From Lunularia cruciata (lineage: Eukaryota > Streptophyta > Marchantiopsida > Lunulariales > Lunulariaceae), in NCBI GenBank assembly GCA_948567375.1, contig OX419755.1:25560517-25624516 (forward strand): a DNA stretch of 64,000 bases, given 5' to 3'. Shown in pieces: positions 1,935-64,000 of this stretch. The notes under the pieces are model-generated. The model was not told where the DNA came from and did no database searches. It worked only from the letters and a program-made list of their open reading frames with translations. How positions within the stretch are numbered: the stretch's first letter is position 1; each line of letters starts with the position of its first letter. The position numbers and the translations under genes are program-made.

Positions 1935-1982
1935 GTGCATGACACTATTGCTTCCTAGGGCCTAATGTAGCAGCCAATCAGT

Positions 1983-2790
1983 ATGTCATCCACTCTTGCG
2001 ACACTTACAAAGGATACTTGGAAGCCAGATCTTGGACCCAAGCTTATTGGAGAAGAAAGACGGAGGGTTTGGAGGTTCTTGAAGAGCTACGCAAGTTGGT
2101 TTGCCTTTAGTATGAAGGATTTAGGTGCTCTAAAAGGACCTGGTATACGGATTGAGCTGACTAGCAATACACCAATTTTCTTACATCCTTATTGCTATAG
2201 TGACATGGAGAAGACATTGATTCAGAGTTGGAGTAGAGACCCTTTTGAGGTTGGTTTGGTGGAGATCTCACATGGGTAGTATGCATCAGCTACAATGATG
2301 CCAGCCAAGAAGGATATGCATGGCAACTACACAAATAGGCAAATATGTGGAGATTACCGTCCTTTCACCCAATAAAGTAGGGCTGATGCAAGTGCCATGC
2401 CTACACTGAAGGAGATTTTTGATACAATTGGGCATGTAAAGGTCTTCAGTACTTTGGATCTTAGAGCGGGATATCATTAGTTGCCTATTAGGTACGAGGA
2501 TAAGTCCAAGACAACATTTTGGGCTATTGATCCTCACGGCAAGGATGTGTTATATTAGTGGAGGTTGTTATCATTTGGGTTGAAGAATGCTCCTTTTGAG
2601 TTCATGAAGGTCATGGATAGGATCGTAGTTGGATTGGATTTTGCTTGGTGCTATATTGATGACATTTTGGTCTATAGCATTATTATAGGGGAGCATGAGA
2701 GTCAGTTGTTAGAGGTGTTTGAGAGGTTGAGATCTCATGGACTCAAATTACATCTTGGGAAGTGTAGGTTCTTCCATGGATTGAGTTGGT
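1983..2790 (+). pseudogene. A-a reverse transcriptase remnant
   Basis: RNA-dependent DNA polymerase domain of a family A Pol polyprotein, which copies element RNA into cDNA in the particle. Visible blocks in order: a pre-RT segment with 'DLGPKLIGEERRRVW', the 'VMPAKKD'-like and 'CGDYRP' blocks, 'VFSTLDL' near 2445, and the catalytic 'CYIDDILVYS' (YxDD type) near 2650-2680. The protein aligns closely with A-c RT at 60080-60830. It lies directly before an integrase piece. Fossil with several breaks; no function expected. Confidence 0.85.
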
Positions 2791-2819
2791 GGCACTTCCT
2801 ATTAAGTCTAGTGAAGGGA

Positions 2820-3640
2820 CAATTTACTTGTTCTTGGATCGAGTTCTTAGTCATTTTGGTGCACTAGCTGAGGTTTTAATTGATCAAGGTACAGAGTTCT
2901 TGGGGGATTTTTAGGTCTTGTGTGACAAGGCTTTGATTGATCATTGTATTACATCTTGAGATCACCCTAAGGTAGATGGCTTAGCAGAGAGAGTGGTTCA
3001 GATGGTGAAGAGAGGATTGCAAAATTATGGTTTGCAAAGAAGCCACTTGGGATATAAGGATCTCCAATTACCTTGGTTGGCCATCATGGGCTATTGGCTG
3101 GCAAGCCTCCTTAGCATCCTTCTCTCCTTACTTCCTATTCTATGGACAAGATCCAGATTTACTTGCAACCATTTGTCAAGATGCTACTGTAGTTTTGGAC
3201 TTGGATGACCGATATGTATGGATGAGTGCATGTTCTCAACGGGTAGAGATCTTTTGGAGAGTGATGCCGATGGCCTTTGAGAACTTGGCAATTGCTCAAC
3301 ATAGAGATAATTTATGCTATGCTACTATTTGAGGAGGAGGTTATAGACCCTTGATCCATAGATTTTATCCAGAAGACTATGCATATCTACAACAAACAAC
3401 ACCAATGACACTTGATGTTTTGACAGGCCGCACTATCTTGAGGGTGTGTGAGGTTTTGCCATCTAGAGTTCTTGTGTTAGAAAGATGTGATGGTGTTGTT
3501 TGGAAGGATCATGTGCGCAATTGTGCACCACCTCCCAAACATTGATGGTACTATGGACCCAAGCTTGGCACTTGTACTTGTACCTAGGCTTGAGGTTTAT
3601 ATAGGTGCCTCAAGGATAGTAGGAGGTACATGTACTTGAC
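2820..3640 (+). pseudogene. A-a integrase C-terminal half and post-integrase segment
   Basis: DDE integrase remnant, the enzyme that inserts cDNA into the genome. Recognisable blocks are 'FGALAEVLIDQGTEFLG' (catalytic Asp region), 'DGLAERVVQMVKRGL' (catalytic Glu region), the 'SLASFSPYFLFYGQDP' segment and 'ENLAIAQHRDNLCYA'. A segment about 60 residues long follows with 'TILRVCEVLPS' and 'HVRNCAP', matching A-b at 36690-36800. In A-b the same segment leads into a PHD finger, which I do not recognise here. Fossil, broken. Confidence 0.8.
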
Positions 3641-3807
3641 CTATAGCTAGTTCATTCTTTATATGGTATAGATTGCAGACATGCGTCTAACAATGGGTCT
3701 CCATAGCACTTGGCCTTTTGATCTTTGTCCATCATAGGGTATATCATATATTTGGAGTAGATGGCTATCTGGAGTAAGAGGGACCTAACTACCAACTAGG
3801 GGGCAAT

Positions 3808-4456
3808 TGTGGCACTTTAGAGTCTATGTATGACTTATGTGTGAGTTGTGCTTCTATAGTGTATGATGTTGACAATGATGTATGTGGTGTAAAAATGTAT
3901 ATACGCCCAACAATTGTCATGCCATTAATAGTGTTGCATCTAGATTTCTTGGACAATGGAGTTGCAATGATAGTAGTAGAGGTATTTCAGTAGTTTCTCA
4001 TAGGCTACTTTCCGATGGTCAGATTTCATGTTTAGGGTACTGACTTCACAATGGAGCCCGCCATTTGCACCGTCAAGTGTGCTGTCAATGGAACCATTAG
4101 GGTTTTAGACCTAGCTCTTGTCCAGGGGTATACTTTCAAAGTGCAGCTCCAGAGAGCTCACTTCTTTGATGTTGAGCCTTTGAGTTCTTGGCTATGGTGG
4201 ACAAAGGCCGGCGAGCATCACCTGGATTCTCTTAGCTAGAATGGGTGTGGCTTGACTATAATTAGTGCCCAATTGTTGGCAGTTTATAGAGTGATAGATC
4301 AAGTACTAATCTGAGTTGAGTTGATTCAAGAGTGGTAAACAATCTGATTATTTGGGCACTTTAGAGTCTATGTATGACTTATTTGTGAGTTGTGTCTCTA
4401 TAGTGTATGATATTGACAGCAATGTGTGTGGTGTAGCAATGTATGTACGCATGACA
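3808..4456 (+). repeat. A-a 3' terminal array B1-A2-B2 (split direct repeats)
   Basis: Three blocks: B1 at 3808-3912 (105 bp, starting TGTGGCACTTTAG), a 2-bp spacer, A2 at 3915-4351 (starting TGTCATGCCATT, ending CTGATTA) and B2 at 4352-4456 (105 bp, a second copy of B1 ending GCATGACA). A polypurine-like run 'actagggggcaat' lies just before B1. A2 is the block found alone at the 5' ends of A-b and A-c. The same geometry recurs at 37183-37845. So the 3' end is B-A-B and the 5' end is A only, which is not a standard LTR pair. Confidence 0.8.
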
Positions 4457-12420: not shown

Positions 12421-12599
12421 TAAGAAGCAACTTGCAGATGCATGCACCCGCATGCCAATGGCAAACAACTTGGTGGCAGAGGTTAAGATTAACCCTAAAT
12501 TCTGGCAAGAGATTTTGGTTGCTACAAAAATTGATCCACAGATTGTAGAAGCACAATCATCCAAAGGTGTCACCAGCACCCAAGGACTCACCTTTTGGG

Positions 12600-29940: not shown

Positions 29941-30390
29941 TGTCACGCCATTTGTAGTGTCTCACCTAGATTGCTCCGACATTGGAGTCATAGTGAGAGT
30001 AGTTAGAGGTATTTCAGCAATTTCTCATAGACTACTTTCTGACGGTCAAATTTCATGTTCAGGGTATTGACTTCACCATGGGGCCCACCATCACTTTGCA
30101 CCATTCACACCGTCAAGTGTGCCAATAGTGGGACCATTAGGATTTCAGACCTAGCTTGAGTCCAAGGGTATACTTTTGAAGTGTAGCTCCAGAGAGCTCA
30201 CTTCTCTGATGTTGAGCCATTGAGTTCATGGCTATAGTGGACAGAGGCCGGCGAGCGTCACCTGGATTCTCTTAGCTAGAGTGGGTGTGGCTTGACTGTA
30301 ATCAATGAATAGTTGTTTGCAATTTATAGAATGATAGATCAAGTACTAATCTGAGTTGAGTTGAGTTGAGAGTTGTAAACAATCTGATTA
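29941..30390 (+). repeat. A-b 5' terminal repeat A1
   Basis: 450 bp from TGTCACGCCATTTG to CTGATTA. It matches A2 at 37290-37740 and the A1 of A-c. It is followed by 'catcaaagaagtgaag' leader, not by the 105-bp B block, in both A-b and A-c. Confidence 0.88.
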
Positions 30391-30959
30391 CATCAAAGAA
30401 GTGAAGTTAGGGGGAACTTGGGCACAGGAATTGATAGTGTTGGTGGTATTTCCAAGACTTGTTGATCATTGGTAGCTCAATTGGAGCTCAGGTTTTCCTG
30501 CGTGTGCAGAAGCTCATTCAATTGATGTAGATTTGGTAGTGAGATAGATGGTATGCAAAGCATTGGCCAATTTTTGAGCAAAGAAGAAGTAAATTTTTTA
30601 GCAATGGTTGTGATTTTGAGCTCAAGAGGTGAATGTAGGACCAATTTGTTGTGAGTTGAGCTCAAAAAGTAAAATTGAAAGTGGAGTTTGGAACCTATCC
30701 TCATGAATTTTTGATTTAGAGAAACCTATTTTTTCAATTTGGCTCAAGTGAAGAGTTAGCAAAGGATTTGGCGGTCAGCCAACTTTAGGGTTTACGTCAA
30801 GATTTTGTTGGAGTTTACGCATAGGGTTGTGGGTTGTGAACTATGAGAAGCTACGAAGGCCTAAAAGGGCCAGCAAGCCAACTTGATAGCGTGAGGCTAG
30901 CTAGTCTAGAGTAGGTCTTGGTCATTGTTTGGCAAAATCTGCCCATCTTGCTAGATTGT

Positions 30960-31031
30960 GCATAACAAGGTTTGAACCCTCAATCTCTTGTTCCTAGACT
31001 AGTGCTTAGCCAACTAGTCCACCCTCACTTG
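30960..31031 (-). other. tRNA-like segment in A-b leader (antisense)
   Basis: On the minus strand there is a Pol III A-box-like 'TGGACTAGTTGG' (31010-31021) and a B-box-like 'GGTTCAAACC' (30969-30978) with tRNA-like spacing of about 31 bp. The same segment is present in A-c at 54591-54645. It may be a tRNA- or SINE-derived piece captured by the element. It does not fold as a clear functional tRNA by eye. Confidence 0.5.
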
Positions 31032-31626
31032 TTGTTCTAGTGACTGTGCCATTGTTATCTATACATTTGTAGTTTTGGCTAGGAGAGGCAGTTTCATCTT
31101 ATTCTTGGTGATCCTGATAGCTTAGGATGTAGATACAAACTTCTCTTATGTCAAATGCCAAATGGTGGAAAAGTAAGTCCCATGTTGCTTTATGAGATGG
31201 AGGGTTTTCATTAAGATATCTTGTGATTGGACCCCGTCCATTCTCTAATTCCTGTTTGTGCACCACATTTGTGTGAGGTACCTTGAATTTAGAGCTTTTG
31301 TGCTTTGGTGTGCTCTCGATAGTGAGTCTAGAGTGATGACTAGTCAAACTACCTTTGTTTCTCTCCAATGAGGCAGGAAGAGATGACTTGTAGACTACGA
31401 GAGTGGGTGTTATGATGGTAGGTTACATGTCACCTTTTCCTCTAGTGTAGTTATCTCAGTTAGAGTTACATTAGTGGGTAGTGTTCTGTGGGTATTGGCA
31501 CTTGGTGGTGCTCAGTTGGTGTTGGCACTTGGTGGTGTTGGTGGTGTTGGCAATTGGTGGAGTACTTGCGGTTACGGTTGCAGTTTGTGGTCGCATTTGG
31601 TGGTTCCAATTTGCAATTACTTTGTC

Positions 31627-32816
31627 ATGACGGAGTTCATTGGGGATTCGAGAGGCAATAGCCCTGCAGTATGCAATGGGTTTACTTGGAGTGGCACTTG
31701 GTATCAACCTATATCTCAAGTCCAAATGAGGGAGGAGATTGACTCTGAGTTAGAGTTTGATATAAGAGTTGATTCAGTTGAGAGTGCACTTGGCATGTCC
31801 GCACCATTGTTGTGGGACATGGATGAGAATTATGGGGCCTCCAAAGGCACTAGGTGTTACTCTGGTACAATGGGTACCATTGAGTTGGATGACTTTCATC
31901 TTGGAGTTTGATAGTTGGTGTGATCCGTAGTAGATGCGGAACCCGACTTTGTTTACACCCTTCAGGGCATGGAAGGGGTTGTTTCAACATTTGGAGGGTT
32001 CACTAATGGATGACTACCATGAGTTTGGGAGAGCTTATTTGGAGGAGATTGAGTTATGGAGACAATATTGGTCTCTGAACTATATCTCTATTACTTCAGG
32101 CTTGGTTGTCAGGAGTAGATTGGATGTACCTATGAGTTCTAGCTTGAATAGTGTTAGTGGAGCTACGGGAGGTGCTTTAGTTAAAGATATTGCTACCACA
32201 AGTCAAGGTCCTGCTGTAGGAGGTGGTGTGGTACCAAGATTTAACCCCATGGTAGAGTTCTTCTAGTGTTTGAGGCAAAACTACTAAGGAGTACAAATTG
32301 ACAAGCTGAGGAGCTTGCAAGAGTTCCAACGGAAAGCTAGAGAGAGCCTATGCAAGGCATACACTTGCATGAGGTGGCTGATCAGTTTCACTCAGGGAGT
32401 TACTGAGGCCTAGGCAGTCCAATTTTGGTATGGGATATTGGACAGGGAGTTGCAACGTAGAGCTCATGACGCTACTTTGTTATAGGCTACTTTGCCTACT
32501 TTGGCAAAAGTCACTGAGTTACGGAGTGGTAGGGCTGCTATGGCAGGTAGTAGAGGAGCTCCAATTCATGGAGGACAAGGTGGTAGAGGTGGTGGTAGAG
32601 AATCTACACCTAGTAGAGATGCAATACCTGCCCTTACTTTCGATACAACTATGGCTACTCCGATTGAGCAGTTGGAGCAAAGATTGGCTAGTATGGCCAT
32701 TGCTCAGAGGAGATCAGATTTGGGTGTTGAAGCTTCCACCTCATATGCTGGTGATAGAGAAGCTTTGGGCTTCATGTGTGGAACAACACAAGTGGATGCA
32801 TCTACAATAGTGACTA
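31627..32816 (+). pseudogene. A-b gag
   Basis: Gag remnant of family A. The ATG at 31627 begins 'MTEFIGDSRGN', the same start as A-c. Blocks: 'ALGMSAPLLWDMDE', 'GTIELDDF', 'NPTLFTPFRAWKGLF', 'DDYHEFGRAYLEEIELW', 'VVPRFNPMVEFF' and 'AYTCMRWLISFTQGVT'. The last segment ('ATPIEQLEQRLASMAIAQ') matches 57265-57325 of A-c. Unit D4 follows directly. Fossil, several breaks. Confidence 0.75.
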
Positions 32817-35800
32817 TGTGACTTTTGACAAATATCACTTTTGCGGTAATCGGGTAAGTAAAGTTTGTTCCCGCAGAGATACGATTCAGAATTGGTCAAA
32901 TATAAAGTCAAATAGTAACTTGTAGTTCTTCTTGATTTCTTTTTTAATCTCTCAGGTAGAAACTACACCCAAAAGAGAGTAACAAGCTCACAATCTTGAC
33001 AACTTGTCACGACTACACACACACATAATCACAACATAGCAAATTCTGTCCAAACAACTCTTGATTGTGATGATTCAGATTCTCTTGAAGACGGCACTTC
33101 ACTATGAAGAAAAATTTTGCCTTAGAATTGTGTTCCACCCCTCCATTGAAGGTACAACTTCCTTGATCAAAATTGCTTCACATCAACTTCATGCTGCATT
33201 CACAAATGCAGAATACTACCAACACTACAATTCTTCTCAGATCTGTCAAGGCATTGCTCCGATGCACTTCACTCAAGATCAAACACACAGAATGAAGATC
33301 AAGGCTGCAGAATCCAACATCCATAGACACATTGAATTGCACTTTGGAATTCTCCATACAATCACAAACACAAACACAAAATTGACAATTGGAATTAAGC
33401 TCAAGCAACGAGCACTAAAAACATCACTTTCCTTTATCTATCTTCAAAAATATGAATACCAAACAACATAATACTGCAAATGCTCCCCTTAAATACTGAA
33501 GCAAATGGCAGTTCTCTTCCTAATGTACCGCTTCCTAACATCTCTTCCTACCTGCAGATCCAAACTGACAATCCATCTCTTGATATCTGCCTCTTCTTAT
33601 CTCAAAATTGGTACTTACATTGATCCGATGTCTACCTCATCATTGGCTTCCAAACCCGATGATCTTCCTACCACTTCTCTTCTTTGTGTATAGCTAATTC
33701 TACCATTTCCTGCACTAAATCTACCAATTCCTGCACTAATTCTACTACTTCTACACTAGGAACTACGATTGCACTAAGGAGTGAATTATCTAACTCTTTA
33801 TCTCCTGACCCACTCCTCTCTAATGTCTCCAATAATAAGTCAGATAACACCTAAATTCCTACTTCTGCAACATCGGATGTCCTCTCTACTATCACACTAT
33901 TACTATTTTTCTCTAACTCCAAATTGACTAAATCTAATCTAAGACTAATGTTGTCTTCTACTTCTAACATTTTCCGGTCTACTCGCTCCCTTAATCGGAT
34001 CAACGACGTGTTCATATCCACATCTTTGGCTTTTCTCTTCCAAGTTTCCTGTACAAGCAACTTTAACTCATGTAGACATGCTTCTTCCAATCTCCCTTTA
34101 GCCTCCAAGCTCAAGATTGCTCGCAACTTTCTTGCAACTTCTCCTACTGATTCCGACTCATACCCTTGAGATCGCTCTGCCTTCAATTCTTCGTGGTACA
34201 TCTTCAACTCATCTTCATACTCAGCAGCGAGCATCTTCTTCTCCTCTGCATACTATGCACTCTATATCTTAGCACTTTGTACCGGCTCTTGCAATCGTCC
34301 TTCTTCTTGATGCTTGACCGCTAACTCCCTCTGCCATGCTTCATCCTTCCCAACTGCACTCTTCTTCAAGCTGTCCAACTCCTGCTCCATTATTGCTGCC
34401 GTCGCCTTCAAATGAATATTCTTGATGTGCACATCACTCACTTCCTCCTTCATTTTGCTCAGCCACATCGTCGGCTCCTTCAATTCCCCTACTTGCTTTT
34501 GTAGTTCTTTTCCTCTTGACTTGCAGCTCTCTTGTAACATCTTGAAAGCCTTCTTCTTCAAGACTTCTTCTCTCCAAAGTTCTCCAATTTCTTCATTTCT
34601 TTGGACTTGTTGCTCTTGCAACCCCTTCACTTCACTCAACAGATGCTTCACCACCTGCAACTGATTCATCACCTTTTTACGATCTTGGGGAATTAAGTTC
34701 TGATGCTCCTCCAGTAGCTCTAGAAATGGTGTGACAACCTTGGTTAGATATAGTATCCCACCGAAGTTATCTTTATCTTTGTCGCCGTCTTTGTCTTCAT
34801 TCTTTGGCTCCTTCATCAGCTCCTTCTGCCAAAGTCACGATCTTCGTATCTTCAGAGACACCGTGTCTGAACTCTCTTCTCCTTTACCGATTGAACTCGG
34901 CCCCGTAGGATACTCCTCCTTTTCCTCTAGTCTCTGCTTATCCACCACCAAGGCTATGCAATGACTCGTTGTTCCTAGTATGTTGTCAATCATCACATGA
35001 CAAGCTTCACTAACTCCCAGTGCTTGCTGAACCTCAGGTTCCCCTTCACTATCACTTCCAGACTCCTCACTTTGTAAGGTGAGTTCATCCTCTTCTGATT
35101 CTTCTCCTTGCAACTCTATTTCTTCTTTAGACTCTGATTCCAATGATGCTTCTCTCACCATCTTCTTACTTTGTACAACCAGTCTTTGAGTCTTCCTTTA
35201 AGCGGGAGGCAACTTTGCCTCTTCGGGTTTACTACGCTTCTCCTTCTTTGGACTTGTGACTTCTTCCATCTTCCATTGTCTTGTCTTCAAGAAGTGTTCA
35301 TCATTGGCTCGCAAGTGTATCATATATTGTTGCTCTTCTTCATCCACTTCCCGTCTTAAATCAGGATGGAAACAAGACACCATGTGATGCCTCTCCTCCA
35401 CTATTAGCAAATTCAACCCAAAGTAGAAGTGTGCTACAAAGGGTGCAAAATAATGGGGAGGCAAACTCGTCCACCAATTGATTACCATCTGCCTCGTTGG
35501 GTGGTGAAAATACTTTGTCCAATTCACCTTTACCCTTGCAAACATTTGGTGGAAGAAGACCGCTTGCTGCATGTTCACGTAAGTTGTTTGTTTTGGCTTG
35601 AACATGGCCATCATTGCTCCCATGATACTTCTCCTAATCGGATCTCAATAGGACTCCACCTTGTAGCCATTTGTGGTTCTCGGAGCAAAGAAAGAGTTTT
35701 GGATTTCTACCGTCTCTTCTGTAGCATCACACTTCCAATAGAAGGTGATCCCCGTTGGTTCTCTTGCTTCCTTCCCCAACACTAACCTCCAATTCAACTC

Positions 35801-36586
35801 AATCCATCAAGCCGGATTTCCTCTCTTCGCTTCAACTTCGGGACCTTCCTCACAATTACTGGCAGCTATCTCTGCCATCACTCTTGGGAAACTGAAATTC
35901 CAGTTCCATGCTAAAAACATAATATGAAGTCTATTCAAGACCTCAATTCTGGCTAACACATCTAACCTACAAATTGCAAAACTTTGCACTACAGAGCATT
36001 TGTGAGCTTCTTCGCCATGTTTTACTCTCTCTTTCTTTAGCACTGAAAGACGATGCCCTCTCTTGGATGAGACACTCTAACTCCTTTTGGATTTTGGAAA
36101 ATTTCACTCTCAATTGGCTTCCGGACACGTATTAATGTAGGATGACTACTCAAAGGAATTGGAAATTTACTTTGCATATTCAACTTGTCCCTACGCAATT
36201 GCAATTTTATATTACCCCAAATTGCAGGCATTCTCCAGTCAATTTCAAATTTGACTTCCCCTCTTCTGCATGCTGATGTACGGTCACTGTCAAGATATGC
36301 TTCTTCTGCCTCTGCCGTTTGTTGAAGTGTACTTTCTTGCCACAAACCAAGGTTGTTAGACGGTCTTCGTATCACCTGCACCTTCCGACCCGAAGACTAT
36401 GCTCTTTGGAATTTTTTCCATTGTACCCTTCTTCTGAGTACCTCCATCATCGGATCCAATCTCGCCTTCTTTGGATTTCCTCCAAAGTCACTTCCGTCCA
36501 TTCTTCTTTTGCAATTCGGCTTTCCATGCTTACTTCTTCCCTCAAATGCTAATAAACAAAAATAAACAAAAAATGTGGGCACCACA
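32817..36586 (-). mobile_element. D4, D unit inside A-b
   Basis: 3770 bp, minus strand. Plus-strand edges are TGTGACTTTTGACAAATATC at 32817 and AAAAAATGTGGGCACCACA at 36586. Unlike the other bounded D units it has no target duplication (gacta / cttat). Its left flank is family A gag and its right flank is the family A post-integrase segment. It carries a full-length D ORF region and a TATA-like 'cttaaata' (minus-strand TATTTAAG) at 33488-33495. Broken. Confidence 0.85.
33600..36400 (-). pseudogene. D4 ORF region
   Basis: Read on the minus strand from about 36400 to 33600, in order: an N-terminal segment ('GVRVSHPREGIVFQC'), 'VLARIEVLNRLHIMFLAWNW' near 35950, the globular block 'SIMGAMMAMFKPKQTTYV', 'QAVFFHQMF', 'AHFYFGLNLL' and 'CFHPDLRREVDEEEQQYM' (35620-35300), and an acidic linker ('EEDELTLQSEESGSDSEGE'). 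Next comes a long coiled coil (34816-33900: 'LEEHQNLIPQDRKKVMNQL', 'ERVDRKMLEVEDNISLRLDL'), then the tail 'SLASKPDD'/'SGSGDKELD'. Total about 900-1000 residues in family layout. No enzyme motif seen. Fossil, several breaks. Confidence 0.7.
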
Positions 36587-36599
36587 CTTATGCTATGCT

Positions 36600-37020
36600 A
36601 CCATTTGAGGAGGAAGTTATAGACCCTCAATCTGTCAATTACATCTAGGTAACTATGTATATCTATAGCAGACAACACCAACAACACTTGATGTTTTGAC
36701 ATGCCACACTATCTTAAAAGTGCGAGAGGTTTTGCCATCTGGAGTCCTTGTGTTGGATGGACGTGATGGTGTTGTTTGGAAGGATTATGTGCACAATTGT
36801 GTGCCATGCTACCTCCCAAACATTGATGGTACTATAGACCCAAGCTTGGCACTTGTACATGCAAGCTTGAGGTGTATGTTATGCAGCTCTTTTGGTGAAA
36901 TTGCTACTATGTTAGTATGTGATAGCTGTTTGAGAGGATGGCATATGGCATGTATGATTCCTCCCGTCATGGTGGTTCTTCAAGGATAGTGGTTATGTCC
37001 TAGATGTACTTGACCTATAG
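36600..37020 (+). pseudogene. A-b post-integrase segment with PHD-type zinc finger
   Basis: C-terminal end of family A Pol. After 'TILKVREVLPSGVLVLDG' and 'NCVPCYLPNIDGTIDPSLA' comes a C4HC3 PHD pattern (36873-37017): CMLC, then 'MLVCDSCLRGWHMACMIPP', then W-x-CPRC. Cys and His spacing fits PHD fingers, which bind histone H3 tails. A reader module at this place parallels chromodomains in chromoviruses. Only this copy in the window shows it. Fossil, broken. Confidence 0.78.
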
Positions 37021-37182
37021 CTAGTTCATTCTTTATATGGTATAGATTGCAAACAGGCAACTAAAAATGGAGCTCCATAACACCTGGCCTTTTGATCTTT
37101 GCCCATCATAGGGTATACCATATACTTGGAGTACATGGCTATCTAGAGTTAGAGAGACCTAACCAACAGCTAGGGGAGCAAT

Positions 37183-37845
37183 TGTGGCACTTTAGAGTCT
37201 ATGTATGACTTATGTGTGAGTTGTGCTTCTACAGTGTATGATGTTGACAACAATGTATGTTGTGTAGCGATGTATATATGCATGATAGTTGTCATGCCAT
37301 TTGTAGTGTCACATCTAGATTGCTTCAACACTGGAGTCGCAATGATAGTAGTTAGAGGTATTTCAATAGTTGCCCATAGACTACTTTCCGATGGTCAAAT
37401 TTTGTGTTTGGGGTATTGACTTCACGGTAGGGCCCACCATCACTTTGCACCATTTGCATTGTTGAGTGTGCCGTCAGCAAGACCGTTGGGGTTCCAGACC
37501 TAGCTCAAGTCCAAGGGTGTACTTTCAAAGTGCAGCTCCAAAGAGCTCACTTCACTGATGTGGAGCCTTCAAGTTCTTGGCTATGGTGGATAGAGGCCAG
37601 CAAGAGTCACTTGGATTCTCTTAGCTAGAGTGGGTGTGGCTTGACTATAATCAGTGCCCAATTGCTGGCAGTTTATTGAGTGATAGATCAAGTACTGATC
37701 TGAGTTGAGTTGAGTCGAGAGTTGTAAACAATCTGATTATTGTGGCACTTTAGAGTCTATGTATGAATTATGTGTGAGTTGTGCTTCTATAGTGTATGAT
37801 ATTGACAGTGATGTATGTTGTGTAGCGATGTATTTACGCATAGCA
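37183..37845 (+). repeat. A-b 3' terminal array B1-A2-B2
   Basis: B1 37183-37287 (105 bp), 2-bp spacer, A2 37290-37740, B2 37741-37845 (105 bp). A purine-rich 'agctaggggagcaat' precedes B1. The geometry is identical to 3808-4456, including the 105-bp length and 2-bp spacer. Confidence 0.85.
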
Positions 37846-53469: not shown

Positions 53470-53922
53470 TATCACACCATTTGTAGTGTTGCATCTAGAT
53501 GCTTGGAGACTGGAGTTCCAATGATAGTAGTTATAGTTATTTCAGCAGTTTCTTAGAGACTACTTTCCGACTGTCAGATTTCATGTTTGGGGTATTGACT
53601 TCACGGTGGGGCTCACTTTCACTTTGCACCGTTTGCACCATCGAGTGTGCCATCAGCAGGACCGTTAGATTCAGACCTAGCTCGAGTCTAGGAGGTATAC
53701 TTTTGAAGTGTAGCTCCAGAGAGCTCACTTCTCTGATATTGAGCCTTTGAGTTCTTGGTTATGGTGGACAGAGGCCGGCAAGTGTCACCTAAATTCTCTA
53801 TGCTAGAGTGGGTGTGGCTTGGTTGTAATCAGTGCCCAGTTGTTGGCAATTTATAGAATGACAAATCAAGTATTGATCTGAGTTGAGTTGAGTTGAGTTG
53901 AGAGTGGTGAACAATCTGATTA
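53470..53922 (+). repeat. A-c 5' terminal repeat A1
   Basis: 453 bp matching A1 and A2 of A-b and A2 of A-a, ending CTGATTA and followed by leader 'catcaaagaag'. It contains a (GAGTT)n run at 53879-53903. No B block follows, as in A-b. Confidence 0.85.
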
Positions 53923-54796: not shown

Positions 54797-55477
54797 TGTG
54801 AGCCCGCCTATCTCTCACTCACGATGAACCTCTGATGGCTATTATGGTAGCGCATCATGGACTAAGAAGGCAAGGAACCCCAACTCCATCATACTCCTCC
54901 AAGGCTAACACTCCAAGACTCAAGACATTTCTCACTAGAGAACTCAATGAGAGAGATAGTTGCAAATGAAAGGATGATGAGTACCTCTTCATCCCTTGTT
55001 TATATACTTGTGAGATAGTTACGCACCAAAATTACTAATTACTGGAGTAACTCAAGTTACTAGGCTAAAAGTCAAGTAAGTTGAAAGGAATATCCATTCA
55101 CATGGGCATATTCCTCTAAGCATGTGGTCTTATCATGACCAAACCACTAAGTCAAGGATTCCTTCACATGGGCTATCCTTGGACTAAAGAAGAATCCAAA
55201 ACAAAAAGGCTTGCGGGCCCAAGAGTTCTCAACTCTTTCCTCAAAGCCAAACACCTAGGAATAATACCAAGTCAACACACTAAAATCCAAAATAGTGGTG
55301 CTCATCTTCTCTACTTCCTCTAAAGTAAGGTCCCCTCTATCTTAGCTATGACTAACTTTAGCTAATCATGACTAATTTAGAATCATCCTTTATCTCTATA
55401 TAAATAATATCTCTCAAATACTTGTAATACCAAGCTAAATATCACAATACCACACACATGCATAAATGGGTGTTACA
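54797..55477 (-). mobile_element. Solo LTR of family B in A-c leader
   Basis: 681 bp, plus-strand edges TGTGAGCCCGCC and GGGTGTTACA. The duplication is gtcc (54793-54796 / 55478-55481), or agtcc if the last A is counted in the target. The leader rejoins on both sides ('gcagagtcagtcc' / 'cgtgttgtgttatg', as at 31165-31185 in A-b). No family B body lies next to it, so a solo LTR left by recombination. Confidence 0.92.
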
Positions 55478-55856: not shown

Positions 55857-57480
55857 ATGGAGTTCATTGGAGATTCCAAAGGAGATAGCTGCAATACGTA
55901 GTGGGTTTACTCAGAGTGATACTTGGTATTAACCTTTATCTTAGGTCCCAATGAGGGAGAAGATTGACTATGAGTTGGAGTTTGACACATGAGTTGATTT
56001 GGTTGAGAGTGCACTTGGTGTGTCCGCACCGTTGTTTTGGGACATGGACTAGATTTATGGGGCCTTCAAAGTCCCTAGGCGTTACCCTAGTACAGTGGGT
56101 ACCATTGAGTTGGATGACTTCATCCAAGAGGTTGATAGTTGGTGTGATTTGCAGCAAATGCGGAACCCGACTTTGTTTACACCCTTCATGGCATGGAAGG
56201 AGTTGTTTCCGCATCTGGAAGGTCCATTGATGGACGACTGCCATGAGTTTAGGAGAGCTTATTTGGAGGAGATTGAGTTATGGAGATAGTGTTGGTCTCC
56301 AAACTATGTCTCTATCACTTTAGGTTTGGTGGTTAGGAGTAGATTGGCTGTACTTACGAGTTCTAGCTTGAGTAGTGTTGGTGGAGCTAGTGGAGGTGCA
56401 TTAGCTAGAGATAGTGTTACCACAAGTGGAGGTACAGCTATAGGAGGTGGTGTGGTACCGGGGTTTAATCCCATGGTGGAGTTTTTCTAGTTTTTGAGGC
56501 AAAACTACCAAGGAGTGCGGATTGACAAGCTGAAGAGCTTGCAAGAGTTCCTACGGAAGGCTGGAGAGAACCTACGCAAGGCATACACTTGCATGAGGTG
56601 GCTGATCAATTTCACTCAAGGAGTTACTAAGGCCCAAGCAGTCCAGTTTTGGTATGGGATATTGGACAAGGAGTTGCGACATAGAGTTTGTGATGCTACG
56701 TTGTTACAGGCTACTTTGCCTACTTTGGCAGTGGGCTTTAGTTTGGTTGATCGTATTGAGCTCAACATGGTGGAGGAGAGGGTGGTGACATCTGGATTTG
56801 GTAGGGAGATCTCATCCACAACTATGACTTCTTCTAGAGTGTAGTAGAGTGCACTACACCCAGTTGGTGTTTGAGAACAGGGTGGATAGCCTAGATCCTA
56901 TGGAGGAAGTGGAGGGCCTAGTGGAGTTAGACCCTTACCTTCATTTTTGGGTTAGCAGCAGCCAATGAGTGGTGGTGCTGCTTGTTGGACTTGTGGTGGA
57001 CCTCACCATTGGAGAGAGTGTACTCAAGGTAATGGACCTAATACCTCAGGTGCATCATAGCCAGCATAGAGGCAGTGTGAGCATTGCCACGGATTTGGTC
57101 ACACTAGTGACTAGTGTTTGGACCTACACCTAGAGTTAGAGAGTGGTAGGGCTACTATGGCAGGTAGTAGAGGAGCTCTAGTTCATGGAGGACAAGCTTG
57201 TAGAGGTGGTGGTAGAGGATCTACACCTAGTAGGGGTGTAGTACTTGCCCTTACTTCTAATACAGCTATGGCTACTCGGATTGAGTAGTTGGAGCAGAGA
57301 TTGGATAGTATGGTCATTGCTCAGAGTAGATCAGATTTGGGTGCTGAGGCTTCCACCTCATATGCTGGTGACAAAGATGCTTTGGACTTCATGTGCGGAG
57401 CAACACAAGTGGATGCATCTGCAGCAGTGACTAGGAGTGCAGTACGTGCTCTAGAGCCTAGAGGAGCATAAGTGGAGTTG
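55857..57480 (+). pseudogene. A-c gag
   Basis: Gag remnant. The start ATG at 55857 ('MEFIGDSKGDS') matches A-b. Core blocks: 'GTIELDDFIQEVDSW', 'NPTLFTPFMAWKELF', 'NYQGVRIDKLKSLQEFLRKA', 'AYTCMRWLINFTQGVTKAQ', 'VQFWYGILDKELRHRV' and 'LPTLAVGFSLVDRIELNM'. Two zinc knuckles follow: 'CWTCGGPHHWREC' (56983-57024) and 'CEHCHGFGHTSDQC' (57076-57117), both CX2CX4HX4C. A Gly-rich stretch and the 'ATRIE.LEQRLDSMVIAQ' coiled segment come last. Fossil, several breaks. Confidence 0.85.
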
Positions 57481-57949
57481 GACCCACAGAGAGAAGAGGT
57501 TGGGAGATGGGTCAAACTTCCACAGTCTTTCACGCTATTTGAGGCATTGCAGACGACATCCATGGTTCCTAGACGTCCCAATGCAGGTGTGGTAGGTGGT
57601 GATGGAGTACATGATGGACTACTTGCTAGTCAGCCACTTGCTACTACATAGACTGAGTCTAGCATGATGTTAGGGGCGGCTCAGCTGATTATGTGGCATC
57701 CTTTGTTTTCAACCAATGACATGTTTACATTGGGAGTTGACCCAACCCCAATGTTCTGGTTGGCTGCCATGCTTTGTGAGAGTAGAAATGATGCAATTCC
57801 TATTACTAGAGTAGAGATGGTTGGTAGTAGAGCTGACTTGGTTGAGGAGCATGGGATCCATTTAGCAACCAGTGGTTTATGGCAAGTAGTAGCGATTAGA
57901 CTGGAGGAGTTGCCAGCTAGACCGGCCTTTGAGAGAGCATGGTTCACAC

Positions 57950-58330
57950 CTGGTGTTGTCATATTGGATAACCAGAGGGGGGTTTTCCATTTGGTGGGAC
58001 CTTCAAGGAAGATCTATACACCATAGAGAGTCTTGTTAGACTCTAGTGTGCAGCCCCTTATGTTGGGGAAGGCTGCAATTGTCGGTCTGGAGTTACAGAA
58101 GACCGATGTGGAGAGGTGTCCATTTCAGATCCAAACATCTCTAAGTGGTGGTTCGACATGATACATCATACGTAGGGATTTTGTTGTCCAAGTTCAGCGT
58201 GGTCATTTGACTGATAGCTTGGTGGTGAGAGCTCAAGCTATTGCGACAATAGCTAAGTCATATGATGTGCTAGTTGGAGGAGCAGTGTTATACCCCATGG
58301 GCTTCAATATTACTATTGGGAGGAGACAAC
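57950..58330 (+). pseudogene. A-c aspartic protease
   Basis: Retropepsin with 'RVLLDSSVQPLMLGKAA' at the active site (58025-58075; family form LLDSGAQP), then 'GLELQKTDVERCPFQIQTSL' and 'SYDVLVGGAVLYPMGF' near 58257-58307 (YDILVG type). It precedes the methyltransferase. Upstream, 57660-57950 ('FWLAAMLCESRNDAI', 'HLATSGLWQVVAIRLEELP') is a linker I do not recognise. Fossil. Confidence 0.8.
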
Positions 58331-58739
58331 CTCCTATAGACCAGGTTGGCAGTCTAGTGAGGGAAGGCTTTGTAGTCTACCAATATGCTTCCGTAGTGGA
58401 AGTCTTGGCTCACTATAGTTCGGGACCATGGCAGCATTAGTTTTAGCTTTCAGTGGTGCAGTTACTTGGCCTAGTGATTTGTTGGAGAAGAACGCCCATG
58501 CAAAGGATACTCCAATACTAGAGGAGATCACTCAGATTTGGAGATACAAGTAGGATTGTTCCATCCACCTTGGATGTTCCATTGTGGAGTTTAGAGGAGG
58601 CATTGTAGCAGCATGCAGATCAGTTGGTGCAACAGGCTTGGATTGGAGCCTTCATATTATCAAGAGATGAGTGTGAGGATGAGCCTCTAGAGTTGATTAC
58701 TTTGACACCTCTAGATACCACACTCATTGCTTGGCAGTA

Positions 58740-59725
58740 TCTAGTAGAGGGGATATGTCTATTGGAGTTGTTCGGTGGGATTAGCATCGGACTAGCTGTG
58801 GTGTTACACGTGGTGTTATAGGTGGGTATACGAGTACAAAGGTACTTGTATGTAGAGAGAGATGAGACTGCTAGGCAAGTCTCTCTACATCATGTGGCAC
58901 ACTTAGCCTATTGATATCCAGAGTTATTACCAATGTCAGCAATCAAAGGTTACCAGAATGCCCTACCAGCTGACATTTCCTTATTGGGGGCGCATGACCT
59001 AGAGAGACATGGGTCTATTCATTTGGTGATTTTTGGATGGCCATGTTAGGGACGTACACATGCGGGCTGCGGTTTGGGTCTTCAAGATCCTCATTCTAGT
59101 GTTTTTTGGGAGATGTTATGAATACTACAACATTTCTAAGTTCATCAGTCCTTTTCTCCAGCTTACCTTTTGGAGAATGCGCCTTTGATGTGTGATTCTC
59201 GCACTAAAGTGGTGGCGAGTACACATCAAATGCATTCTTAGATGGGACCTGCTGAAATATTAGATGCAGCCAAAGTGGGATCACGGGCTCATCAACTTTG
59301 TCTTTGGTGAATGAACCTCTTACCCAAAGAGGTTCTACAACGTGCTTATGATGGGATTCAACAACTTGACTACATCCTTGTTGATGATATCTTGGATGTT
59401 AGCCGTCAGTCTTAGACATTGGTAGTGGCTGATAGGTCACCTATGGCAGTGGTGAACCTAGTTGAACAGTCTAGAGCCGCATTTCCCACACCCATGAGTT
59501 TCCTGGGCTCTCATTCTTTTTGAGAAGGAGGATCTGGACTGGTTTAGGACTCACAATTACAGCGGTTGGTGAAGCCCAATGCCGATGAGAGAGAGCAGGT
59601 GATGGGTTTTCATACCGGTATTACCGCTATTCCAGCAGTGTCAGAGGCATCCAAGTGTCAAGTGTTAGGTCAGGCTAAAGACTTGAACTGTTTGACCTGG
59701 ATTGTGAGCCTTGGCTTGGCAAAGC
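58740..59725 (+). pseudogene. A-c cytosine-5 DNA methyltransferase domain
   Basis: Domain of about 330 residues that in this family transfers a methyl group from S-adenosylmethionine to cytosine in DNA. Motifs in canonical order: I 'CLLELFGGISIGLAVVL' (58756-58806), II 'RYLYVERDETARQV' (about 58840-58881), IV 'HLVIFGWPC' with the catalytic Cys (59020-59046), VI 'AYLLENAP' (59161-59184), VIII 'GSRAH' (59278-59292), then a recognition-type region ('LDYILVDDILDVSRQS', 'RAAFPTPMSFLGSHSF'). Motifs IX-X follow: 'ADEREQVMGFHTG' and 'VLGQAKDLNCLTW' (about 59580-59705). The order is not permuted, unlike plant DRM enzymes. It sits between protease and RT, so it belongs to the element. Fossil, several breaks. 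Confidence 0.9.
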
Positions 59726-60019
59726 AGCGTAGGATGTGCTTGATAGGCATCACCACTCGGACACTTGTGAGCCTTGTGCCTATCAAGACAATTTAGGCAC
59801 ATGCTAGGGGCAATGGACCGAGTGGACATGGTATTCTTGGGACACATCTAGTAGATACTAGGGAAAGTGGCCAACTTGGAGCCCATCTAGGTGAGCGTGG
59901 GCTACTTGGATTACACCCTTGGTCCACATGGGATGCAGCTAGAGGATGTGTGGAGCTTGCAGCCAGAGTGGAAGGAGTTTTTCACACAAAGGTTGGGACC
60001 TCTAGTGGTCGGGAGCATG

Positions 60020-60860
60020 ACAATATTGCTCCCAAGGGCCCAGTGTAGCAGCCAATCAGTACGTCTTCCACTCTTACTACAATTATAGAGGATATTGGGG
60101 AGCCAGATCTTGGACCCAAGCTTATTGGAGAGGAAAGACAAAGGGTTTGGAGGTTCTTGAGGGGTTACACAAGTTATTTTGCCTTCAATATGAAGGATTT
60201 GGGTGCTATAAAGGGACATGGTATACAGATTGAGCTGACTAGCAATACACCAGTTTTCCGATGTCCTTATTGATATAGTGAGATGGAGAGGACATTGATT
60301 TAGAGCCGGAGTAGTGATCTTTATGAGGCTGATTTGGTGGAGATTTCACATGGAGAGTATGCATTAGCGACAGTAATGCCAGCCAAGAAGGATATGCATG
60401 GCAACTACACAGATAGGTAGATGTGTGGAGATTACCGTCCTGTCAACCGACAAACCAAGGCTAATTGGTATGCCATGCCTACACTGGAGGAGATTTTTGA
60501 TGTGATTGGGCATGCAAAGGTCTTCAATACTTTGGATCTTTGAGCGGGATATCATCAGTTGCCAATCAGAGAGGAGGATCAGTCCAAGATAGCATTTAAG
60601 GCTATTGATCCTCACGGCAAGGATGTGTTATATCAATGGAGGTTCTTATCGTTTGGGTTAAAGAGTGCTCTTGCTGAGTTCCAGAGGGTCATGGATAGGA
60701 TCCTAGCTGGATTGGATTTTGCTTGGTGCTATATTGATGACATTTTGGTCTATAGCACTACTATGGAGGAGCATGAGAGACAGTTGTTGGAGGTGTTTGA
60801 GAGGTTGAGATCTCATGGACTCAAATAACATCTTGGGAAGTGCAAGTTCTTCCATGAGCA
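60020..60860 (+). pseudogene. A-c reverse transcriptase
   Basis: Blocks: 'DLGPKLIGEERQRVWRFL' and 'TSYFAFNMKDLGAI' (pre-RT), 'VMPAKKDMHGNY', 'CGDYRPVN', 'MPTLEEIFDVIGHAKVFNTLDL', 'GYHQLPIREEDQSKIAFK', 'LSFGLKSALAEFQRVMDRIL' and catalytic 'CYIDDILVYS' with YIDD at 60730-60741, then the thumb 'LGKCKFFHEQVEYLGH'. Ty3/Gypsy type. The near-identical text in A-a dates both to one family. Fossil, several breaks. Confidence 0.92.
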
Positions 60861-60899
60861 GGTTGAGTATCTGGGTCACACTATCTACCCCGGAGGACT

Positions 60900-61510
60900 T
60901 GGTGTTTAGCAGACCAAGGTGGAGGCTATTGCACGTATTCCTTGGCCTACAAATGTGAGCAGAGTGCGAGCATTCCTTGGGTTGGTGAACTTCTATCGCT
61001 GCTATGTTAGAGGATTTAGTGCCATTGCCAAGGCCTTGATAAAGCTGACCAAGCTTACATAGGAGTGGTGTTAGGGAGATGAGCAGGAGAGAGTTTGTGT
61101 AGAGCTCAAGGAGAGGTTGACATCTGCTTCTATTTAAGGAGACTAATCAGAGGATGACCATTTCAAGTTCATACTGATTGGAGTATATTGGAGTTTGGAG
61201 CGGTGCTCACCCAGCATGATGATGAGGGGAAGGAGTTTGTGGTGGCTTATGCTAGTTCCTCCAACAATTCAGCAGAGGCAAAGTATAGTTCATATGAGGG
61301 AGAGTGCTTGGCAGCAGTTTAGGTAGTAGCACATTTCCGATGTTACCTATTTGGTAACCCCTTCACTCTCATCACTGATCATCAACCATTAAAGTGGTTG
61401 ATGGAGTCCGACAAGCTTTTAGGGAAGCTTGCACGATGGACTCTGATTTTATAGGAGTATGATTTCATGGTTGTTCATAGACTTGGAGTGGTGAACCGTG
61501 ATGCAGATGG
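60900..61510 (+). pseudogene. A-c RT connection and RNase H
   Basis: Connection 'VEAIARIPWPTNVSRVRAFLGLVNFYRCYVRGFSAIAKAL' (60930-61045). RNase H follows: 'FQVHTDWSILEFGAVLTQHDDEGKE', 'YASSSNNSAEAKYSSYEGECLAAV', 'FRCYLFGNPFTLITDHQPLKWL' and 'GKLARWTLIL'. Standard Ty3/Gypsy order. Fossil. Confidence 0.88.
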
Positions 61511-61559
61511 ATGAGTAGAAACCCATGTCCCAGCCAGCAGGATCAGACGGGAGCACGTT

Positions 61560-62092
61560 GGCATAGTGAGACAAATGAGGAGATGGTGCCAGGTTGGCAT
61601 GCATCTGCCTTTTGTGTATATTTTCAAAGGCTTTGGTGGTATCTCTCTTAGTGCATACAGGAGGAGTCATTGAGGTCAGAGATCCAAAAAGTGAAGATAT
61701 TGGTACAATTCAGCGAGACATTCATGATGATGTCTTAGTGATGGACTATCTTTGCACTGGTGTTGTGGGTAGCACAATTGGGACCAAGGAGAGAGACTAT
61801 GTTCTTCAGCGAGCCCGACGGTTCAAATTGGAGGGCAAACACCTTTTGCGTGTATGGGAGGATGGTAGAGTGCAAGTAGTACCAGTTCCATCTCAAAGAC
61901 CACAGTTGGTCCGTCATGCTCTTGAGGAGCTAGGACATTTTGGAGTAAAGCGTACATATAGCTTACTCCAAAGTCATTTTGGTAGTGTGGTATACAAACT
62001 GAGGTACAGTAGTTTGTTGCCTGATCTGTGGTTTGTGACCAAGTTAGAGCATTATTCAATGCTCCTATGCCACAGTTACACCCATTACTTGA
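61560..62092 (+). pseudogene. A-c integrase N-terminal zinc domain
   Basis: 'LVMDYLCTGVVG', 'ERDYVLQRARRFKLEGKHLLRVWEDGRVQVVPVP', then the HHCC domain 'LVRHALEELGHFGVKRTYSLLQSHF' and 'VCDQVRALFNAPMPQLHPL'. The core domain is not reached before D9. In A-a the complementary C-terminal half is seen (2820-3340). Fossil. Confidence 0.85.
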
Positions 62093-64000
62093 TGTTCCTT
62101 CAAGTATTTCTCCTTCTTTGGGTCTACTCAATTCCACTTCTAACTCTTCTCTTTTTATCAACTTTTCTAACTTTTCTCTTTTTTTTTTACAATTTCTTCA
62201 CTACAAACTACAATTGCATTCTATCTACTCTATCTTCATTAGTATCTTCCTACCCATTCTTCTCTACTATCTCAAGTAACTCACCCAAAGACACCTGAAC
62301 TCCACTTACTTTGGACTTCCTAACTAATTGCACTTCACTACAAAGTTTATCCAACTTTGTCCTAACAAGATCTAATTTGAGACACACATTGTCTCCTACT
62401 TCTAACATCTTCCTATGTACCCATTCTTGTAGATGAATCAATAAATTGTTCAACTCTGTGTCCTTCACCTTTCTCTTCCTTGTCTCTTGTACTAAGAAGT
62501 TCAACTTGTGCAGTCTGGCTTCTTCTTGCTTCCCTTTGACTTCTGTGCTGAGCATTACCTTTATCTCGCTTACCACTCCTACTTCATCATTAGATTCCAC
62601 CACTATCTTGAGCTTCTTCTTCTTTCTTTCTTCTTCCAATTCATTGCAATACATCTGCAACTTGTCCTTAAACTCAGCCTTTGTCACCTCCTTCTCTTGT
62701 TGATTTTATGCAAGCTGTTCTTCCGCCACTCTCAACAACCCTTGCAATCAGTCTTCTTCTCTATTACATTCTGATAACTCTTGCTACTAGGCTTGATTTT
62801 TCTCAACTGCCTTCTTCTTTAGACTCTCTAATTCTTGCTCCATTACTGCCACACTTGCCTTCAAATGTATTAGCTCTACTTGCGCATCAGCAATTTCTCC
62901 CTTTAGTACTTCTACCAACGCCATCTTCTCTTTTACTTCTTCTCGACTCTTTTATAAATCCTCATTGCTTCTGAGTGATTACTCCAAAGAATCTCCCCTA
63001 CCCAAAGTTCTTTGGCCTCCATCTCTACTCGTGTTAACTTACTTCTTAACAACAAGGTCTCTACACTCCACTTCTCTACTACTTCTAACTCATCTTTCAT
63101 GTTGAGGTTAGCACTCGCCATCTTTGCTTTCTTCTATTGTAGAAACATCAACAATGGACATACAACCTTTAAAAAGTACTCCACTCCATTTTACTTCTTG
63201 TCATTGGCCTAGACTTTGTCACCCTTTGTAGGTAACTCTTCTACTGGCGCCTTACTCTTAAGTTGCAATCTTTGTATCTTCAATGTCTCCACATCTGAGC
63301 TCTCTTCCTCTTTGGTGGTGACTTTACTGGGCCTGATGTTAGCTGCATGCACACTTCTCTTTCCCCTTGCAGTTCTTGGACATACCAAGACTCTTTCTTC
63401 TTCCTTCTCATGTCCTTGATTGATGGTGGACACCTCTAGACTTGGCTTCTCTGCGTCCACACTCCGTCTTTGGGTTTGCTGAACCTCCACCTTGCCTTTG
63501 CTGCCATTGATTGACTCTTCACTTTGCAGTTTGAGCTCTTCTTCTCCTCCCAAAGCTTCTCCCTTTGACTTAGTTTCTCCTTTTGACTCCTCCTCCTCTT
63601 CCGGAGTCAATTTCCTTGCTTTCACCAACATTGCCTTTGGGTTAGGCTTCTGCATCTTCTGTGGTTGTACTACCACAAGGTGACTTTTAGGTTTGTTTCT
63701 CTTTCTTGCCCTGGGGATATCAACTGCTACAATTCTCTCCTTCCCACTCTTCTTGAAGTACTTGTCCCCTTCTTGCACTTGCTCCATATAATATCATGTA
63801 TCTGCATCCATCTCCTTGCACAAATCCGGATAAAAGTGCAATTGCATCTGGTTTCTCTCCTCCAAAGTCAGTAATTTCAGCCCAAAGTAGAAATGAGCTG
63901 CGAAGGGCAAAAAATAATGTGGTTGCATGTCCATCTTCCAACCCAAAATCATCTGCCCCACGCACTGATACAAACACTTTGCCCAATCCACTACTTCTCC
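62093..64000 (-). mobile_element. D9, partial D unit running off the window
   Basis: Minus-strand D sequence beginning inside the end of the D ORF ('cttcaagtatttctccttctttgggtct' area, as at 40150-40180), without the TGTGACA-type 3' end seen in other units. It joins family A integrase at about 62085-62095. The right end is off the window. Broken. Confidence 0.75.
62100..64000 (-). pseudogene. D9 ORF region (C-terminal two thirds)
   Basis: Minus-strand text from the window edge: globular block end 'MDWAKCLYQCVGQMILGWKM', 'LPFAAHFYFGLKLLTLEERNQM' and 'HFYPDLCKEMDADT' (63991-63800), a basic and acidic linker (63787-63209: 'RARKRNKPKSHLVVV', 'KLTPEEEEESKGETKSKGE'), and the coiled coil (63120-62260: 'HLQEWVHRKMLEVGDNVCLKL'). 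Same layout as D4-D6. Fossil, several breaks. Confidence 0.7.

Follow-up and report, generated by a model that had tools for sequence, protein, structure and literature searches.

Is a cytosine-5 DNA methyltransferase a regular part of a plant retrotransposon, and if so, what could it do there? The question is raised by a 64,000-nt stretch of the genome of the liverwort Lunularia cruciata (contig OX419755.1, positions 25,560,517 to 25,624,516 of the forward strand; this whole stretch is hereafter called the window), which contains three copies of a Ty3/Gypsy element. Only one of them, designated A-c, spans the site of a methyltransferase domain. A single frame of A-c (frame 0, 56002 + 3k, which includes 58201) runs in translation through Gag, the CCHC knuckles, the retropepsin region, the methyltransferase and the reverse transcriptase (RT). 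The initial annotation of the locus had claimed a cytosine-5 methyltransferase built into a plant Gypsy element and lying between retropepsin and RT, and both claims are borne out: the translation contains LELFGG, YLYVERDE, GWPC and LENAP, which we take to be motifs I, II, IV and VI, together with what are presumably motifs VIII and X, all in canonical order. The span then assigned, 58740..59725, falls within the domain, the extent of which is slightly wider (about 58732-59760). What that annotation lacked were the in-frame stops, of which there are 40 in 56002-61101 (one being the UAG at the end of open reading frame 1, ORF1) and ten inside 58720-59760. The domain also carries a 12-nt insertion (genomic matches of 1,074 bases vs. 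the 1,086-base query); the catalytic Cys and the motif VI Glu are retained.

Because A-c is decayed, its domain, with stops read as X, scores weakly against profile PF00145 (E 0.0067, 16.3 bits, below the Pfam cut-off of 22). Absence of a significant match to this profile had been named beforehand as an outcome speaking against a methyltransferase, and formally the window copy comes close to it; a younger copy from the same genome (29.9 bits, E 5e-7) and a relative, protein P0001 (42.7 bits, E 6e-11), are nevertheless significant. In a protein search with the window domain, which matched 18 proteins, P0001 is the best match, 60% identical across 95% of the query (E 8e-130).

The source genome was surveyed over 566 Mb in 74 contigs. 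Its dynein heavy chain genes (12 matches) and one MIR166 locus slightly over the gathering score (62.4 vs. 60 bits) indicate a land plant with motile sperm, probably a bryophyte, lycophyte or fern, and make a host among flowering plants, conifers or zygnematophytes unlikely. When a Marchantia Gag-Pro-DNMT protein was used as query, 36 copies were scored among 21,978 first-look candidates, and all 36 match from Gag through DNMT (residues 1-1230) with 62% identity, eight of them being free of stops across that match. As counted from first-look candidates and not from scored matches, DNMT DNA (6,997 candidates) is about as common as RT DNA (6,664; 40 scored for each). Thirty of the 36 scored copies were fetched for detailed analysis. 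PCQ in motif IV and ENV in motif VI are present in 30/30, motif VIII reads RLR in 28 and RLC in one (it was not found in one), and the last 450 codons of ORF1 are stop-free in 19. In copies chosen by the window RT, the methyltransferase lies directly upstream in 10/10; this set comprises the best ten of 39 other listed copies, one already in the sample being passed over, and a distant DNMT-free subfamily could still exist because the RT query itself derives from a DNMT-bearing copy. A genome survey with PF00145 gave 123 scored matches, all above the cut-off, of 2,161 candidates; they are mostly element copies, and six have clearly different profile ranges (3-106, 1-99, 56-140, 33-86, 2-101 and 274-323). 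Two genomic matches, C7:31989837-31990154 and C1:48270096-48270446, correspond to other parts of PF00145 than the element does and are probably host methyltransferase genes.

A chance insertion of a host methyltransferase into a single element copy, an outcome for which the initial annotation had allowed, might be proposed from the window, where one copy has the domain and truncation or disruption affects the other two at this place. With the domain in 30/30 fetched and 10/10 RT-selected copies, and in relatives from other species, such a single-copy accident is refuted and its probability is practically nil. The annotation had also supposed that the lineage persisted in this genome or spread into it. 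The family is there, and not as the relict of one genome, as it is abundant and young in L. cruciata and occurs in several bryophytes.

Profile searches against PDB, Foldseek and VIA-align all point to DNMT3 as the closest enzyme class, the best profile and fold match being DNMT3A/B, and in the relatives motifs I, IV-VIII and X are colinear with those of DNMT3A. A DRM enzyme, which the initial annotation had already discounted as the source, was rejected: the order is linear (I, IV-VIII, X) and is not that of motifs VI-X placed before I-V, and the scores are also against it. A bacterial-type enzyme class was rejected on scores. CMT and DNMT1 are absent from the PDB profile match list, which by itself excludes nothing. 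While animal DNMT3A/B share the motif order and give the best match, host DNMT3 enzymes are set apart by the position of the Lunularia domain within a Gag-Pro polyprotein and by its PCQ.

The methyltransferase lies in frame between protease and RT, yet it is parted from RT by a conserved UAG. This codon stands in the context UAG-CARYYA, in frame with both domains, in 30/30 fetched copies and in L007, a contig treated below; the junction reads UAG and then CAGCCA at 60046 and at 1968 in the window, and UAG CAATCA in L007 (TAGCAATCA). Among the 2,363 TAG triplets of the window, six are followed by CARYYA, and two of these six are the element junctions. The CARYYA context drives readthrough in tobacco mosaic virus (TMV) and other plant viruses (PMC4132726; this and the other papers named here by PMC number are cited from partial texts). 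Proteins P0128, P0129 and P0132 terminate 94-100 residues past motif X, as expected of such an ORF1. A conserved in-frame UAG between DNMT and RT would place the methyltransferase in the Gag product, and RT and integrase in the extension; the methyltransferase is thus probably made at the level of Gag.

ORF2 ends in a PHD finger (PF00628), which was identified in the second window copy and also in a genomic copy (E 8e-11) and L007 (E 4e-10), and the nearest solved relatives of which include the fingers of CHD4, PHF12 and UHRF1. It is present in nine of ten 10-kb loci, the tenth being without the ORF2 end. Because the named bryophyte proteins examined stop short of the end of ORF2, the finger is established for the L. 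cruciata genome and L007 only. The order RT-RNase H-integrase was recovered by tblastn in nine of the ten loci, with one incomplete; RVT_1 was found in the window, and H2C2 and rve in the genomic copy. Scans of L007, the window and the genomic copy found no chromodomain at the integrase C-terminus, the PHD finger standing in its place, and the Pfam scan of ORF1 of the genomic copy gave no further domain such as PWWP. Assignment to DIRS elements by integration enzyme was rejected: rve and H2C2 are present, and no tyrosine recombinase appeared in the scans of L007 and the genomic copy.

The element is bounded by split terminal repeats. Its left end is a repeat A1 of ~450 bp starting with TGTCAC; the right end consists of a purine tract, a repeat B1 of ~108 bp, A2 and B2, the last ending in GCA(C/T)GACA or a decayed version of it. 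This A-interior-B-A-B order was seen in three of the five copies examined at both ends, and all five are flanked by 4-bp target duplications (TCCT for the window copy at 29941-37845, and CACT, ACAT, TCAG and ATAA). Across the ten 10-kb loci, seven contain B1-A2 (three of them B2 too), two a single B, and one has none within its stretch. B1 equals B2 over 107 bases in the three copies compared. A conventional long terminal repeat (LTR) composed of A plus B was rejected, as A1 has no B following it and B stands before A2. The right ends with a single B are those of loci L020 and L029, both of which have 4-bp target duplications. Loss by B1-B2 recombination would explain this form, which may also be a second natural one.

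To what extent is this element shared with other plants? An eight-sequence profile matched 412 proteins; of the 120 matches listed, most are without a host name, so that vascular-plant hosts may be among them. The hosts given by name in the protein searches comprise Marchantia polymorpha, M. paleacea, Riccia sorocarpa, Calypogeia fissa and four species of Sphagnum. Named relatives retrieved with the window domain as query are 46-62% identical to the decayed window copy, and a young copy reaches 74% identity to Marchantia. In a DNMT tree of 55 rows, from which proteins with fewer than 235 aligned residues were left out, a clade of 25 rows (100/96) unites the source-genome copies with the proteins of liverworts and Sphagnum, the source copies being sister to the remaining 22. 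L007 falls in a separate clade of nine rows (99/92), the other members of which are without plant names.

L007, which encodes a distant relative of the element, is a 9,285-bp contig in a cyanobacterial metagenome-assembled genome (MAG), with a 127-nt end overlap that makes it circular in the assembly. It is most likely a eukaryotic contaminant; a guess at its host would be a soil alga, for instance Klebsormidium. Both frames are open: ORF1 encodes CCHC knuckles, a protease region and the DNMT, and ORF2 contains the RT, RNase H and integrase zinc and core domains (PF00078, PF17917/PF17919, PF17921 and PF00665, in order), and then the PHD finger. The DNMT of L007 is 48-49% identical to that of Marchantia, and its ORF2 is ~65% identical to source-genome copies. 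After its purine tract comes a B-like repeat with scores of 37-54, each above the maximum of 300 shuffles (means ~21). A bacterial origin was rejected, the five loci in the contig collection being L007 and four Streptomyces loci at 27-36%. In the viral collection, P0001 and L007 ORF2 as queries matched nothing, and profile A3 gave six weak matches (31-53% over short stretches). That element proteins (P0062 and those of L007) appear in bacterial or cyanobacterial MAGs is probably due to eukaryotic contamination of the bins.

A charophyte Gypsy element with a DNMT, KnitGypsy-Dnmt3 of Klebsormidium nitens, has been described by de Mendoza et al. (2018; PMC5890265). According to that description it resembles the Lunularia element in its Gypsy domain set, in a non-rearranged DNMT3-type domain within the coding region and in DIRS-like repeats arranged A-coding-B-A-B. 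The two are most likely of the same kind, and the kinship with a charophyte element that the initial annotation had proposed is supported in domain set and repeat structure, as compared with the published description. The Lunularia element differs in belonging to a land plant, in its very high copy number and in its PHD finger, "PHD" having 0 occurrences in the partial text of PMC5890265. SymbioDIRS-Dnmt3 and SymbioLINE-Dnmt are likewise retroelements with a cytosine-5 methyltransferase, but have a tyrosine-recombinase DIRS or a long interspersed nuclear element (LINE) backbone and dinoflagellate hosts; two of the DIRS enzymes (SymbioDIRS-Dnmt3) were active in yeast, and the Gypsy case was called independent of the dinoflagellate ones (PMC5890265). 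Another paper, citing that of 2018, places DNMT3 members in "LTR Copia and DIRS" elements of streptophytes and dinoflagellates (PMC12344493). Chromoviruses such as Physcomitrium RLG1 (PMC7466625) are likewise Gypsy elements whose integrase carries a module of the histone-reader type at its C-terminus; theirs is a chromodomain, whereas the Lunularia element has a PHD finger, split repeats and a DNMT. The Phygy, Selgy and OTA non-chromoviruses (Neumann et al., 2019; PMC6317226) share with it the lack of a chromodomain. The words methyltransferase and PHD are absent from the available main text of that work, and the Lunularia element has both; the same work gives 4 or 5 bp as the rule for target duplications in plants.

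The open-licence literature searched yielded no description of this element from a land plant, no PHD finger on an LTR-element integrase and no UAG-CARYYA stop in such elements. The basic element kind is known from one charophyte and the Lunularia family is real and well supported; within the literature searched, the presence in bryophytes, the very high numbers here, the Gag-side position before UAG-CARYYA and the PHD-tipped integrase appear new.

The decay of the copies is itself informative. Nine of the ten stops in the A-c domain fall at columns occupied mostly by Gln, Arg or Trp in the relatives, and one lies in a segment that has no counterpart. Over the DNMT domain, the fixed differences that separate A-c from the 30 young copies comprise 71 C-to-T/G-to-A changes on the side of A-c, 14 transitions in the reverse direction and 18 transversions, and the 71 changes are distributed 24/24/23 over the codon positions. 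This is the pattern left by neutral deamination of methylated cytosine. A1 and A2 of five young copies (A2 being incomplete in three of them, where the stretch ends) differ at 0.65-2.6% of aligned bases, by transitions only, one copy also having a gap of 9 nt; the difference is 16% in the old window copy. Both the C-to-T/G-to-A decay and the transition-only differences between A1 and A2 suggest that the copies are probably methylated.

How might these parts work together? We think it fairly probable that this is an autonomous Ty3/Gypsy element which, in seed-free land plants, carries a captured enzyme of DNMT3 type, and that the enzyme is packaged and methylates new element DNA. ORF1 would yield Gag-protease-DNMT, and at the leaky UAG in its CARYYA context a minority of ribosomes would go on into ORF2 (RT-RNase H-integrase-PHD). 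Made at the level of Gag, the DNMT would be packaged into the particle and released by the element protease; if it is indeed produced together with Gag, packaging and methylation of the element's own DNA seem the most likely course. The enzyme would act on double-stranded element DNA before or at integration, the new copy would arrive pre-marked like host heterochromatic DNA, and the PHD finger may guide integrase to chromatin according to the state of its histone H3 tails. More tentatively, and with the balance leaning against so broad a statement, a single capture of DNMT3 before or around the origin of land plants might have given the element an epigenetic kit of its own: a writer whose dose follows that of Gag through a leaky stop of the TMV type, and on the integrase a reader of the H3 tail. 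The silencing mark of the host would be set on element DNA prior to insertion, and in genomes such as this one element DNMT domains would far outnumber those of the host.

Several observations weigh against the model of an autonomous element with a packaged, active methyltransferase. Motif IV reads PCQ where the aligned DNMT3A segment has PCN, and the structure model is weak in places, with a predicted local distance difference test score (pLDDT) below 50 in stretches such as 258-303. Two of the five copies with both ends terminate in a single B and have no A2, one of them being also without the end of ORF2, and the window's own element copies are all decayed. The KnitGypsy DNMT is stated to lie in the Pol ORF, whereas that of Lunularia ends the Gag-Pro ORF before UAG-CARYYA, and the KnitGypsy enzyme gave no detectable methylation in yeast, a result that its authors judged inconclusive (PMC5890265). 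The ratio of nonsynonymous to synonymous polymorphism (pN/pS) is higher for DNMT (0.48; 30/30 copies) than for RT (0.34; 26/30) and Gag (0.30; 27/30), all values being biased low because the copies were picked by similarity. DNMT is the least constrained of the three, and selection on it among copies is only weakly shown; in the codon-position test DNMT is at the margin of significance (p 0.04), and Gag (0.92), protease (0.80) and RT (0.80) fall short of it. The motif VI Glu is replaced in some homologues (8 Lys, 1 Gln, 1 Gly and 1 gap of 112). The strongest argument for a role is the conservation of catalytic residues across lineages that are only ~48% identical: among homologous proteins covering the respective columns, the catalytic Cys is found in 98/105 (5 gaps, 2 Tyr), the motif VI Glu in 101/112 and the motif VI Asn in 111/112.

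Other explanations start from the same data. The excess of C-to-T/G-to-A changes in A-c, even over codon positions, and the transition-only differences between A1 and A2 would also be expected if the DNMT restrained its own element, new copies being soon silenced, the cost to the host lowered and the element's own lineage spared, and a similar idea has been raised (PMC5890265). Host CMT, MET or DNMT3 enzymes would produce the same decay, however, and a very abundant, young family does not look restrained; we regard this explanation as unlikely. Low probability is likewise given to camouflage or counter-defence, suggested for DIRS elements (PMC5890265), by which particle-methylated DNA would evade recognition or degradation as foreign unmethylated complementary DNA (cDNA), or free enzyme would disturb host silencing in trans. 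Should the stop be read in the proposed way, the enzyme would be dosed like Gag, as would befit a protective coat, but Gypsy elements without a DNMT thrive too. Moreover, we know of no plant sensor of unmethylated cDNA.

It is quite improbable that methylation has been lost and the domain retained as an RNA- or DNA-binding extension of Gag. Its location on Gag, PCQ in place of PCN in motif IV and the lack of detectable activity of the KnitGypsy enzyme in yeast (PMC5890265) would agree with such a function; the catalytic Cys and motif VI Glu are nonetheless kept in the homologues as counted above, and both in 30/30 genomic copies, while many other positions vary. About as improbable is that a Gypsy element of bryophytes or other land plants gained its DNMT3 apart from the charophyte element. 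The kinship with KnitGypsy-Dnmt3 is drawn from description and not from sequence, and the 2018 paper calls its own case independent of those in dinoflagellates (PMC5890265), but the split repeats are of the same kind as those described for KnitGypsy-Dnmt3. Homology to L007 extends along the whole element, including protease, DNMT, ORF2, PHD finger, B repeat and UAG-CARYYA, which argues for one capture followed by descent and not for repeated capture.

DNA methylation is the classic weapon of plants against transposons. A highly successful land-plant element that keeps a de novo-type methyltransferase, apparently made together with Gag, in every sampled copy reverses this picture. The question can be tested in laboratory bryophytes, as Marchantia polymorpha has long open relatives. 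The K. nitens case is suggested to be one branch of an old and widespread family, and the PHD-tipped integrase is a further means by which retroelements may read chromatin.

Table. Positions in the window of the parts of the three element copies
Feature	Position	Strand	Evidence and remarks
Left terminal repeat A1 of A-c, decayed TGTCAC start	53470..53922	+	83% to A1 29942-30390; 81-82% to A2 3922-4350 and 37297-37739
Gag with two CCHC knuckles, A-c	56044..57110	+	CCHC in translation; tblastn with P0128 (Marchantia) 1-730 on 56044-58311, 47.9%; Pfam scan gave no match
Retropepsin region, active-site motif decayed, A-c	57980..58350	+	45% over 114 residues to L007 protease region; no Pfam match in window copy; relatives give Asp_protease_2 only below cut-off
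DNMT3-like cytosine-5 methyltransferase domain, A-c	58732..59760	+	Dead here (10 in-frame stops, 12-nt insertion); class taken from relatives
UAG-CAGCCA, stop in CARYYA readthrough context ending ORF1 (Gag-Pro-DNMT), A-c	60046..60054	+	
Reverse transcriptase, start of ORF2, A-c	60106..61134	+	PF00078 E 2.3e-27; 56% to L007 ORF2
RNase H, frame shifted, A-c	61134..61535	+	67.9% to L007 ORF2 370-503
Integrase zinc-binding part, A-c; element similarity stops here	61687..62087	+	42-43% to L007 ORF2 547-680
Second element copy, disrupted	29941..37845	+	Ends paired by inference from order, strand and 4-bp duplication TCCT (29937-29940, 37846-37849); no DNMT match inside by tblastn
A1 of second copy, begins TGTCACGCC	29941..30390	+	
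PHD finger, C-terminus of ORF2 (integrase), second copy	36873..37007	+	PF00628 E 1e-7, 32.3 bits vs. cut-off 24
B1 repeat after purine tract, second copy	37181..37290	+	
A2 repeat, second copy	37291..37739	+	84% to A1 29942-30390
B2 repeat, second copy, right end ...GCATAGCA	37740..37845	+	
Third copy, 5'-truncated	1937..4456	+	Starts downstream of DNMT position
Readthrough stop, third copy	1968-1976		
RT, third copy	1980-2777		
Integrase, third copy	2777-3530		No Pfam match for this stretch alone
B1, third copy	3806-3914		
A2, third copy	3916-4350		
B2, third copy	to 4456		

Other repeated sequences lie in and around these copies. Coiled-coil-rich repeated frames, five of which were scanned with none above the Pfam cut-off, occur at 6978-7905 (-), 28213-28929, 32826-34090, 39517-40910, 44050-46643 (-), 49886-50926 and 62181-63793 (-). 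A further Gypsy-type RT/RNase H is located at 11450-12190 (PF00078 E 7.6e-29), with ~29% identity to L007 ORF2 over 11363-13372. An LTR-like repeat of ~680 bp is inserted in the leader of A-c at 54797-55476, and further copies are found at 1242-1936 and 20038-20706 (-); the homologous leader at 30819-31509 is without this repeat, its two matches meeting with an overlap of 5 bp.
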